Virus record (IMG/VR): IMGVR_UViG_3300030116_000046
Location: 1 to 23,309 of that record
Strand: one strand, 5' to 3'
Source of the DNA: a virus
DNA length: 23,309 nt
Positions 16,258-20,465 of this stretch are shown here, one piece after another. The notes beneath the pieces were generated by a model, which was not told the origin of the DNA, ran no database searches, and saw nothing but the letters and a program-made list of their open reading frames with translations. The first letter of the stretch is position 1. The number at the start of each line of letters is the position of its first letter. Both the position numbers and the translations under genes were made by a program.

Positions 16258-16360
16258 TTTTACTTCCTAATTTTTTTAAGTCAGCGGCGGTAATTTTATT
16301 TCTTGGTGGGGCTACCCGTGCTAGTTTCTTTTGCTTTGCACTATACTTACTAAAAGGCAT
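16232..16360 (-). CDS. 42-residue basic mini-protein next to the terminase
   Basis: The short frame reads MPFSKYSAKQKKLARVAPPR, then NKITAADLKKLGSKNGKRKT, and stops at TAA 16232-16234. MPFSKYS.KQKKLA..APP..KIT.ADL is a pattern I recall in small phage genes next to terminases. The ATG overlaps the terminase stop by one base (TAATG), so translation is probably coupled. It overlaps the next gene by 26 bases. Basic and helical in its second half; it could bind DNA or the packaging motor, but this is inference. Confidence 0.7.
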   Translation of the reverse strand: MPFSKYSAKQKKLARVAPPRNKITAADLKKLGSKNGKRKTKT

Positions 16361-17796
16361 TATACAATTCCTGCACTAGAGTATCTAATTTCTTGCTCAA
16401 ATCCGTATTTTCTGTAATGCGTTTTGTTCTTCATTCGTTCGCCAAATCGCTCTATGGAAAGAGAAGCATACCTCATAGCACTTATAAGATCGTCTTTGAT
16501 CGGCACCACTCGTCCATTTTTTCGATGGTAGAGACGCATTTCTTCAAGGGTTTCAACACAAGACATAAAAATTTGCAAGCGACCAGTTTCAAAGCGTTGC
16601 AGCATGATGCTAAGGCCCGCTTCAATAGAGTTATTACCATTTAGTTTACCCTCCGTAGGTGGATTGCTGAAATGGTCAGGCAGCATATACACACCCAAGT
16701 CCCTGTACTGTTGTGCTAACTGTATGCCTGACCCTTTATCATGCTGTAACCCATCGTGGGGAAACGCTACTGGTATTCCCGGTGTTCTTGAGTTTAATAC
16801 AGCTGCGTGAGTCAGTGGTGTTTCTTTGCTTCTCCGGTGTTCGTCATAGATGTAAATGATATCATCATCTGGATCATACGCTGCCCAAGAAATTGCAGTG
16901 GGGTGGTCAAAGCCAAAATCAATAGCGGCCAATCTTGGATAATGATCCGGTATCTCGAAATCTTCACATACAACGTCATCCTCAGACACTGGAAATACCA
17001 ATCCTGAGCCAAATACTGGTATTCCCTTGGAACGCATATCCCTCTCAGCAGGACTATAGACCGCTAAAAGTTGTTCCTTTGTTTTTTCGTCCAGATGTTC
17101 TACGTCGTCCCAAGTTGCCGTTATTAAGCTCTGCCCAGGTTTTAGATCGTTCATAAAACTGCTTACTACTGATGTCATCCCACGTTCTGGGGTAAAGGTC
17201 ATGTAAACTATACCATCTGTATCGGCAGTCCGGGTTATGCACTGGGAAAATATCTCCTGTTTAGGCTCTTCGTCAAGCCAGACAACATCTATTGCCTCGC
17301 CCATAAATTTTTCAAAACCTTGTTCGTATGCTTTAAAACTGATCTGAGAGTTTCCTCCGCTACGGTGTTTGACCAGTACGCTAGAAAAAGCATTTGGCAC
17401 TCCTGGTTTACGAATTGTTTCTACAATGTTGTCCAGTGGTATCGCGCCTGTGCCCTTTTTTGAAGGGTCTTGTGGATTGCCAAATAGCTCTTTTTGGATA
17501 ATGTCCCGTGTAGTGTCATTCGACTCACCAGCTGCCCACGCCTTGATGGGCTTGTTAAACTTATAACCCTTCCACCATTTAGGATAGTTACCTGTTAGGT
17601 GGTAGGCTGTTTCAGCTGCTCCGCAATAGGTTTTCCCCACTCTGTTTGCGGCCATTAAAATTCTTTGAGCGCAACTGTTGCCTTCAGAATGAAACCTAGT
17701 CTGGTAGTCGTAGGGACTATACTGCTCAATACGTCTGGTTTCCACCCGACGTTGTTTTTCTTGCAGTAGCTTTAAAATTTCTTCTTTAGTTGCCAC
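16360..17796 (-). CDS. terL: Terminase large subunit (packaging ATPase and nuclease)
   Basis: The 478-residue protein has the Walker A motif AANRVGKT at residues 49-56 and Walker B VVWLDEEP at 171-178, with catalytic Glu following the Asp. TFTPERGMTS (200-209) is in the position of the coupling motif. The RNase H-like nuclease domain shows its first Asp in AAIDFGFDHPTAISW (293-299 DFGFDHP) and a late acidic pair in DDLISAMRYA (435-444). It pumps DNA into the procapsid through the portal and cuts the concatemer. An 11-base overlap links it to the small subunit upstream, and its stop overlaps a mini-gene start downstream. Length and motif order are normal for the family. Confidence 0.95.
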   Translation of the reverse strand: MATKEEILKLLQEKQRRVETRRIEQYSPYDYQTRFHSEGNSCAQRILMAANRVGKTYCGAAETAYHLTGNYPKWWKGYKFNKPIKAWAAGESNDTTRDIIQKELFGNPQDPSKKGTGAIPLDNIVETIRKPGVPNAFSSVLVKHRSGGNSQISFKAYEQGFEKFMGEAIDVVWLDEEPKQEIFSQCITRTADTDGIVYMTFTPERGMTSVVSSFMNDLKPGQSLITATWDDVEHLDEKTKEQLLAVYSPAERDMRSKGIPVFGSGLVFPVSEDDVVCEDFEIPDHYPRLAAIDFGFDHPTAISWAAYDPDDDIIYIYDEHRRSKETPLTHAAVLNSRTPGIPVAFPHDGLQHDKGSGIQLAQQYRDLGVYMLPDHFSNPPTEGKLNGNNSIEAGLSIMLQRFETGRLQIFMSCVETLEEMRLYHRKNGRVVPIKDDLISAMRYASLSIERFGERMKNKTHYRKYGFEQEIRYSSAGIV

Positions 17797-18244
17797 GCAA
17801 AGGCACCACGTTTTCTGAAAGACGCTGAATCTGCTCGTCTAGCTCCTCGTCTGTAAGCTCAGAAATCTCCCTAACAACCGTCTCCTGTTTATGCACAGCA
17901 TCGTACCCAGCCCGTGACAGGATGTCTCTGGCGGCATTCAACTTAACATTTTCAGAATCAGCTTCTCGCATTAGGCTTTCCAAGACAGACAAAGCAAGTG
18001 TCGCTGTCTCTCCAACTTTTTCCTTAATGCGTTTTTCAATATGGAGCCAAAGGTGCCGCTGTAGCCGCTTTGCCCTGTGTCCCGCATGGGAGCCTTCAGC
18101 CTTGTACCCAGCTGCGTGAAACGCTTGCTCAGGTTCTAGGTGGTTGTCTACCAGTTGTACAATAAACTCGTACTCTTTAGAGGTCATTTCCCTGTCTAAG
18201 GGTTTTGGCTCTTCGTAGCTGGCAAACTTTCTTGTTTTCGGCAT
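17786..18244 (-). CDS. terS: Terminase small subunit
   Basis: The 152-residue protein contains MTSKEYEFIVQLVDNHLEPE, then QAFHAAGYKAE, a helix-turn-helix-like DNA-recognition region. A long helix follows (LQRHLWLHIEKRIKEKVGET), then LESLMREADSENVKLNAARD and LSRAGY, typical of small terminases that oligomerise through the central helices. The acidic C-terminus (REISELTDEELDEQIQRLSE) would contact the large subunit. It recognises the packaging site and loads the motor. Position directly before the large terminase and 11-base overlap confirm it. The ATG at 18244 lies within the end of a possible 45-residue upstream ORF. Confidence 0.85.
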   Translation of the reverse strand: MPKTRKFASYEEPKPLDREMTSKEYEFIVQLVDNHLEPEQAFHAAGYKAEGSHAGHRAKRLQRHLWLHIEKRIKEKVGETATLALSVLESLMREADSENVKLNAARDILSRAGYDAVHKQETVVREISELTDEELDEQIQRLSENVVPLRGN

Positions 18245-18333
18245 ATAATTTTTCTCAGTTTGTTTACGATTTGTTCTCGTAATGTAGGCACTAACACTGG
18301 TGTGCCACCAAGATAACCGGGAATGTATTTCAT
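18196..18333 (-). CDS. Possible 45-residue leader ORF at the late promoter
   Basis: A minus-strand ATG at 18331-18333 opens a 45-codon frame (MKYIPGYLGGTPVLVPTLRE, then QIVNKLRKIICRKQ) that ends at TAG 18196-18198 and overlaps the small terminase start by 49 bases. The late promoter -10 box ends seven bases before this ATG, so the transcript would begin at or next to it and the message would be leaderless. The N-terminal 30 residues look protein-like, the rest less so. It may be a real small gene, a leader peptide coupling terminase translation, or chance. No family is recognised. Confidence 0.4.
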   Translation of the reverse strand: MKYIPGYLGGTPVLVPTLREQIVNKLRKIICRKQESLPATKSQNP

Positions 18334-18339
18334 AGTGTT

Positions 18340-18368
18340 ATTATACTATATATTTACAATAGTGTCAA
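18340..18368 (-). promoter_or_regulatory. Consensus sigma70 promoter of the late operon
   Basis: On the minus strand TTGACA (18363-18368) and TATAAT (18340-18345) are separated by exactly 17 bases. Both hexamers match the consensus perfectly. The first transcribed base would fall near 18333. It points into the terminase genes and the whole 18 kb virion operon, with no other equally good promoter seen there. A perfect host promoter implies either early expression or tight repression; the repeats just upstream could hold the repressor sites. Confidence 0.8.
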
Positions 18369-18447
18369 TAGGTTTTCAAAATACCCCCCGGAATGAACGC
18401 ACTGGACTATAAAACAACTGACCACCACTGGGGGGGTCGCGGTCTCG

Positions 18448-18517
18448 TTTTGTTCCTGCTTTGTTCAAGGTTGAGAACAAAAGTGGAACAAAAGCAGATC
18501 GGACAAAAGAACAAAAG
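18448..18517. repeat. GAACAAAAG repeat cluster, three direct and two inverted copies
   Basis: Direct copies of GAACAAAAG lie at 18475-18483, 18486-18494 and 18509-18517, with a near copy GGACAAAAG at 18502-18509 (one base shorter). Inverted copies TTTTGTTC (18448-18455) and CTTTGTTC (18459-18466) lie to the left. The centre of symmetry is near 18470. Spacings of 11 and 23 bases between direct copies are about one and two helical turns, fitting protein binding on one DNA face. Confidence 0.6.
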
Positions 18518-18543
18518 GTGAACATCCAATGGTGTGGCAATTT

Positions 18544-18632
18544 TGCAACAATGTTGCATAAACATCACTGTTGCAATTGTGCGACAGTGTTGCGCCTGGG
18601 CAACAGTGTGACAATTGTGCAACAGTGTTGCA
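18544..18632. repeat. TGCAACA-N-TGTTGCA palindrome array; operator- or iteron-like
   Basis: Perfect 15-base palindromes occur at 18544-18558 (TGCAACAATGTTGCA) and 18618-18632 (TGCAACAGTGTTGCA). Imperfect ones lie at 18580-18594 (TGCGACAGTGTTGCG) and 18599-18613, plus a half site at 18569-18575. The last two units also belong to a 20-base direct repeat with one mismatch: 18574-18593 and 18612-18631, 38 bases apart. The arrangement resembles binding sites for a dimeric repressor or origin iterons. Confidence 0.75.
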
Positions 18633-18898
18633 GGATTGTCACAAATATTTTAAAAGTGTGCGTGTGTGTGCCAATAGAACATACTTTGGCATTGTTTTTG
18701 CTTGCAATGTGTTTTGCGACAAAATGTGCATTATAGTGCATATGGCCCTAGAACGTCCTAAGAAGCTCGCTGGTGCGTCTTGGCAAAACGCTACCCATGA
18801 CCCATAAAAATAATTTGCGCGAATCGGGCATAGTTGGCATGGTGTTTGAATAAGCAATTTACAGGCCACCAATGCAAAGGGCGACGAAAATAAAAGTG

Positions 18899-18926
18899 TT
18901 GACCAGATATTGGCATATACTATAAT
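18899..18926 (+). promoter_or_regulatory. Early promoter, sigma70-like
   Basis: TTGACC (18899-18904) and a perfect TATAAT (18921-18926) are 16 bases apart. Transcription would start near 18933, leaving a short leader with AAGGAG before the ATG at 18954. It is the only good rightward promoter ahead of the early genes and is divergent to the late promoter about 540 bases away. Confidence 0.75.
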
Positions 18927-18953
18927 GGAAAACGCAACAAAGGAGCAGAACCA

Positions 18954-19612: not shown

Positions 19613-19791
19613 TGACCTTAGAACTAGATTGTGAAAAGTACGTCGAAGCCGTGACTGGACCGGCGAATGCATGGGGTGCTTGTTTGGTAGACGGTATCCC
19701 TTCCCATACGTTCCTGGCCATCATGTTTGACAAGTATGGTCAAGACATGGTAGACGCCTATTTGAAAGATAACTATTGGAGCAAGTCATGA
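19612..19791 (+). CDS. Small hypothetical early protein, 59 residues
   Basis: The frame reads MTLELDCEKYVEAVTGPANA, WGACLVDGIPSHTFLAIMFD, then KYGQDMVDAYLKDNYWSKS. It is acidic and probably mixed helix and strand. There is no signal peptide, membrane segment or known motif. Coupling is strong on both sides: the ATG overlaps the upstream stop (TAATG) and the stop overlaps the GP88-like gene start (ATGA). It may work with that downstream protein, but only the arrangement supports this. Confidence 0.65.
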   Translation: MTLELDCEKYVEAVTGPANAWGACLVDGIPSHTFLAIMFDKYGQDMVDAYLKDNYWSKS

Positions 19792-20465
19792 CGACCTTAA
19801 AAAGCGACCATGCGGCCATTGTGGAAGGTCGCACCATGTACAGCAAGAACGTCCACACGCTTGACCAGTACAAGCACAAGGTCTTGAAACCGTCGACTAA
19901 TAAAAAGCTTGGCCGCAAGGTTACCAAGGGCAAGCTTGCTGGTATGCCAATCTATACCTTGACCCTTGAAGAACGCGCAACGTGCGATAGGGCCTGTGAG
20001 CATTGGCAAGATTGTTACGGAAACAACATGCCATTCGCCCATCGCATCGACACAGTAGGTCTGCGAGCGCGTTTAGAGAAAGAGTTGGACGAACTCGATC
20101 GGAAACACAAGCGAGGCTATTTGGTTCGCTTGCATGTGCTGGGTGACTTCTACTCTACCGAGTATGTGGCATTCTGGCATGTACAGGTTGCCACACGTGA
20201 CAAGTTGCATGTCTACGGTTATTCCCGACACCACCCCGGCAAGCCAATCGGGAACGCCTTAAAATGCACACGCGACGTTCTAGGTTTCGACAAGTTCGCA
20301 ATCCGGTTTTCAACATTGCCAAGCGACAATCTTTCGGCCAATACTGTCCACAATACGGCCAAGGATGCCATAACCTGTCCGGTCCAATTGGACAAGACAG
20401 ACAGTTGCGGCACATGCACGCTATGTTGGACCGCTAGGAAACCTATTACATTCCTAGATCACTAG
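19788..20465 (+). CDS. GP88-like Cys-rich phage protein
   Basis: With the start at the ATGA overlap (19788) it has 225 residues; a longer start at 19776 lacks support. Features: AGMPIYTLTLEERATC (51-66), a Cys cluster TCDRACEHWQDCYGNNMPFA (Cys66, 70, 76), then RLHVLGDFYSTEYVAFW (114-130), VYGYSRHHPG and a second cluster ITCPVQL ... SCGTCTLCW (Cys197, 207, 210, 213). This layout matches a phage family related to mycobacteriophage gene product 88, found in alphaproteobacterial phages as I remember. The Cys spacing suggests zinc or an iron-sulfur cluster, and the conserved LHVLGDFYS strand suggests an active site. The reaction is unknown. Hairpin copy 3 starts on the last base of its stop. Confidence 0.75.
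   Translation: MTTLKSDHAAIVEGRTMYSKNVHTLDQYKHKVLKPSTNKKLGRKVTKGKLAGMPIYTLTLEERATCDRACEHWQDCYGNNMPFAHRIDTVGLRARLEKELDELDRKHKRGYLVRLHVLGDFYSTEYVAFWHVQVATRDKLHVYGYSRHHPGKPIGNALKCTRDVLGFDKFAIRFSTLPSDNLSANTVHNTAKDAITCPVQLDKTDSCGTCTLCWTARKPITFLDH

Follow-up and report, generated by a model that had tools for sequence, protein, structure and literature searches.

The array of short palindromes and half-sites described here is probably the recognition part of a phage DNA-packaging (genome-end) region, and its reader, judging from sequence and from analogy with cultured phages, is likely the small terminase, TerS, encoded beside it. Its basis is sequence conservation, the spacing and location of the sites, the homology of TerS, and a gene order shared with the genome ends of cultured relatives. 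The window, meaning the whole stretch of DNA analyzed, is a 23,309-base viral contig and a piece of a marine podovirus-like phage. Its late genes occupy the minus strand and include those for TerL and for a portal and a major capsid protein, both of SU10 type; its early genes run along the plus strand toward a T7-like primase-helicase, and a gap at 18245–18953 divides the two sets. At the edge of the late genes lie terS (17786–18244, minus strand, 152 aa), which encodes the putative array binder, and terL (16360–17796, minus strand, Terminase_6), which encodes the proposed nuclease. The late promoter of the terS operon (18340–18368, minus strand) is a 12/12 consensus match, TTGACA-17-TATAAT (11/12 or better in 42 of 45 relatives), while the early promoter (18899–18926, plus strand) matches at 11/12, TTGACC-16-TATAAT. 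Rfam and tRNA scans returned no match. A 27-kb contig (G011; L176–L177) whose TerL, portal, and capsid proteins are 100% identical to those of the window extends further at the other end and probably derives from the same virus. A GP88-like early protein (19776–20465 of the window) had no counterpart in the ten relatives examined.

The gap contains two perfect 7-1-7 palindromes, TGCAACAATGTTGCA (18544–18558) and TGCAACAGTGTTGCA (18618–18632), the only two in the whole window; 2000 dinucleotide shuffles gave a mean of 0.07 in the gap, with a maximum that was also 2. Imperfect palindromes occur at 18580–18594 (5/7 pairs) and, more weakly, at 18599–18613 (4/7 pairs), a single half-site lies at 18569, and a direct repeat at an offset of 38 bases relates 18574–18593 to 18612–18631 with 19/20 bases identical. 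A preliminary description of this DNA had reported each of these elements, and each was borne out. It had also placed the array within 90 bases; the sites are there, but the real array spans 18451–18643. This ladder comprises approximately 18 half-sites (TGNNACA or NNGAACA and their reverse complements) in steps of mostly 11 or 8 bp, and the gap holds six half-site pairs at these two spacings, compared with a shuffle mean of 0.02 and maximum of 1. Sub-array A (18451–18524) is an 11-bp ladder of TGTTC/GAACA half-sites with AAAA tracts between the rungs, which fall at 18451, 18462, 18473, 18484, and 18518; those at ~18495 and ~18507 are degenerate or displaced by one base. Sub-array B (18533–18643) consists of TGYRACA/TGTYRCA half-sites, includes the palindromes, and mostly alternates between 8- and 11-bp spacing (18533, 18544, 18552, 18569, 18580, 18588, 18599, 18607, 18618, 18626, and 18637).

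Just upstream of terS, a conserved core, CCCCCC-GGAATG...GGGGGGG (18384–18436), is a candidate site of terminase cleavage or docking, and the half-site ladder lies past it, on the side away from terS. The core comprises CCCCCC (18384–18389), AATG (18392–18395), and GGGGGGG (18430–18436), followed by TCGCG. The distance from AATG to the G-run is 37 or 38 bases in all 45 non-redundant relatives, which were themselves chosen by a loose core pattern; core variants are present in L064, L068, L077, and L080–L082, and relatives differ in how the ladder is phased with the G-run. On the early side, the module is closed by a GT-rich element, GTGTGCGTGTGTGTGC (18656–18671, plus strand), which has similar sequence at the same position in many relatives and may mark the right-hand end of a terminal repeat.

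Searches with TerL and TerS yielded about 150 related contigs, a set later enlarged using a divergent TerS. The core recurs in them on the side of terS that faces the early genes, and in most a half-site array adjoins it. Spacing statistics were computed on the 45 non-redundant relatives. These contain 137 half-site pairs at 8 or 11 bp, against 0.86 expected from shuffles, and 33 of the 45 loci exceed every one of 100 shuffles; the 8/11 spacing was picked from the same relatives used for this counting, and the later-fetched loci L292–L298, in which the core and some 8/11 pairs are present, alone provide a partial out-of-sample check. Pairs at 11 bp comprise 51 of GAACA and 28 of TGTTC. When repeated 5-mers were counted without reference to any motif, 11 bp again led, at 28.8 per kb versus 1.5 per kb elsewhere in the same genomes. 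The half-site motif varies among relatives and the 11-bp spacing is mostly kept; the signal at 11 bp is weak in G006, G008, and G009, and in the L072/L074/L290 clade the core is kept and the motif altered. Both are missing from TerS relatives at about 30% identity. A search for further copies of the palindrome, as had been proposed, found no other site in the window; among near-complete relatives, copies are confined to the region between terS and the early genes. These comparisons of sequence support the earlier view that the region resembles a multi-site protein-binding array. In clade G008, TerS and the array have both diverged; this covariation is not decisive, because the G008 polymerase has diverged as well and shared ancestry is inseparable from it.

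The ends of the relatives' contigs form a loose cluster 0–400 bases from the core, several at the GT-rich element, with no nucleotide in common. A 91-base end repeat in G003, considered as a terminal repeat, proved to be a 12-base tandem repeat: at L162:1–91, CATTGCACACAC recurs soon after the G-run, and the assembly breaks inside it. Pelagibacter phage HTVC106P (L197:5250–5570) carries 11-base-spaced TGTTC half-sites and TGTTGCA-like sites slightly upstream of terL; these may be a remote counterpart of the array.

The preliminary description saw no repressor or initiator gene in the window and hence no known binding protein. This last point is probably wrong, because TerS is encoded next to the array and the layout matches the genome ends of cultured relatives. 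The window TerS matches PHROG 2538 (terminase small subunit; E 2.7e-9) and the small terminases of PDB 7joq and 6w7t (E 6e-10 and 1.4e-9); by sequence it is a homologue of PaP3/NV1-type TerS, a relationship that is weaker by fold, where the best match is 6w7t (PaP3 TerS), with a probability of 1.00 but an E of 0.11. PaP3 TerS is a nonameric helix-turn-helix (HTH) ring that binds its own packaging DNA specifically (PMC7672466), and the separation between neighboring HTHs on TerS rings is close to one turn of B-DNA (PMC4737164); a ring of this kind would be expected to read sites 11 bp apart, as in the array. It is debated whether DNA is wrapped around the small-terminase ring or threaded through its channel, and how sequence is recognized (PMC11331095, PMC4737164).

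The window shares with Pseudomonas phages tf and LUZ24 the order terS (minus strand), late promoter, gap or terminal repeat, early promoters, and early genes (plus strand), and in these two phages the genome ends, as terminal repeats of 186 and 184 bases, respectively, fall in that gap, past the terS promoter and before the early ones. Their repeats start at or within a C-run (GATATCC/CCCCGGG and GGGGAATATC/CCCCCAGG, with the slash at the start), and a GGGG(G)TGGCC run begins 25–28 bases after the start of the C-run. The window counterpart is AAAATACCCCCC...GGGGGGGTCGCG, with 46 bases from C-run to G-run, and because these distances differ, the likeness of the cores is one of architecture rather than alignment. 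The tf ends were determined experimentally, and GATATCcc has been proposed as a terminase core (PMC3517423). More broadly, LUZ24-like phages (LUZ24, tf, UFV-P2, NV1, and PaP3) have homologous TerS and TerL, a terminal C-run, and a G-run 25–33 bases on; they differ from the window in their shorter core spacing, in lacking a dense TGNAACA palindrome array, and in their half-sites, among them CTTAAG-type ladders that flank the repeat toward terS. A motif-free count of repeats in the equivalent gap also ranks 11 bp first in tf, UFV-P2, LUZ24, NV1, PaP3, and Phriendly, phages with other motifs, several of them close kin; the equivalent gap of KIT05 shows no 11-bp excess. The closest cultured TerL proteins (55%) are those of the Vibrio phages Phriendly and KIT05. 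In Phriendly, PhageTerm predicts a 105-base direct terminal repeat within this gap, and in KIT05, a 130-base end repeat starts at the homologous place; both repeats have G-runs near the left end and GT-rich sequence near the right (early-side) end, and neither phage has a dense array.

Like the pac sites of SPP1 and SF6 and cosB of lambda, the window has repeated sites beside a candidate cleavage site next to terS. The R sites of lambda cosB are few and far apart and lie between cosN and terS, whereas in the window the core separates the array from terS; recognition in SPP1 and SF6 has been described as largely sequence independent. The ends of PaP3 were published as 20-base cohesive ends, and this cos 20-mer has no obvious similarity to the window core; for phage Delta, of the same species, 182-base terminal repeats have been reported (PMC8540360).

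Other proteins could in principle bind such an array. The preliminary description favored a repressor switch or an iteron origin. In the latter, an initiator would bind the repeats as iterons and open nearby AT-rich DNA, and the repeated sites, the phasing of the A-tracts, and an AT-rich stretch at 18644–18654 accord with this. The cumulative GC skew, recommended as a check, does reach its minimum at about 18,500, but the gene strand switches at the same place, so the turn is uninformative about an origin. Since the primase-helicase, family A polymerase, and gp2.5-like SSB make up a T7-type set of replication genes, with no iteron initiator recognized among the early genes of the window and G004 (which include several small proteins without assigned function), this reading is unsupported, and we consider it unlikely; the change of half-site motif between relatives, at a mostly constant 11-bp spacing, also counts against it. 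An operator array, through which a phage-coded repressor or activator would switch between early and late transcription, fits the location of the palindromes between two divergent sigma70-like promoters. The array does lie, as first described, between divergent consensus promoters in a gene-free gap, but the promoters are well away from it rather than adjacent: some 80 bases separate its start from the late −35, and some 255 bases its end from the early −35. With the sites overlapping neither promoter and no repressor family recognized among the early genes tested (again including several small proteins without assigned function), the repressor switch is unsupported; about 18 half-sites are too many for a simple operator, no strong promoter lies inside the array (best 8–10/12 in the 45 relatives), and the operator reading is thus distinctly improbable.

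A third family of candidates comprises host regulators, with sub-array A as LexA boxes and the 7-1-7 palindromes as Fur-like boxes that sense the host state or titrate a regulator. Alphaproteobacterial LexA boxes have the form GTTC-N7-GTTC. GTTCCTGCTTTGTTC and GAACAAAAGTGGAAC match it exactly, sub-array A holds several exact GTTC-N7-GTTC/GAAC-N7-GAAC repeats in the direct-repeat arrangement of a LexA box, and one relative, L041, carries TGAGAATGATTCTCA-type sites. Yet these sites, too, overlap neither promoter, the 11-bp rule also holds for half-sites that are not LexA-like, and the best cellular TerL match in a search of genome contigs for a host reached only 47%, leaving host regulation highly improbable. 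About 829–907 bases upstream of terL, L041 has three TGAGAAT/TGCGAAT Fur-like palindromes at an exact 39-base spacing beside the core. A Fur/Zur-like 7-1-7 box, prompted by TGAGAATNATTCTCA and TGTTATANTATAACA in relatives, was rejected: the palindromes and the other half-sites make up one ladder, and no link to a host emerged. We also set aside ParB/parS. A perfect 16-base chromosomal-type parS, TGTTTCACGTGAAACA, is present in the packaging gap of one clade (L072:1261, L073:57, L282:57, L287:1261, and L290:1249); it is limited to that clade and degenerate in its sister L074.

Under the packaging reading, each 11-bp helical turn of the half-site ladder would be contacted by one HTH domain of a TerS ring, and the array DNA would be bent or wrapped. 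Bound TerS would then position the large terminase on the adjoining C-run/G-run core (18384–18436), where the concatemer would be cut to produce a chromosome end, and by analogy with tf, LUZ24, and Phriendly, the sequence from ~18384 to ~18675 may occur twice, as a terminal repeat. For this phage, binding and wrapping by TerS, the places of cutting, and a terminal repeat are all inferred. Several observations count against the packaging reading: the relatives' contig ends share no exact terminus, the 11-bp excess is missing in KIT05 and weak in G006, G008, and G009, the C-run and G-run are further apart than in LUZ24 and tf, the PaP3 cos sequence is unlike the core, the array motif fails to discriminate TerS from another conserved DNA-binding protein, and a simple cyclic ring leaves the mixed orientation of the half-sites unexplained. 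It is conceivable, if somewhat doubtful, that the array is a sequence-specific footprint of such wrapping, that the HTH domains of the TerS ring each read one half-site per turn in either orientation, and that the 11-bp rule spans phage groups with diverged motifs. A natural array of approximately 18 half-sites, most of them one helical turn apart, together with a TerS homologous to one whose ring structure is solved, offers a defined substrate for a direct test of the wrapping model, and it could yield a sequence rule for locating packaging sites in uncultured phages.
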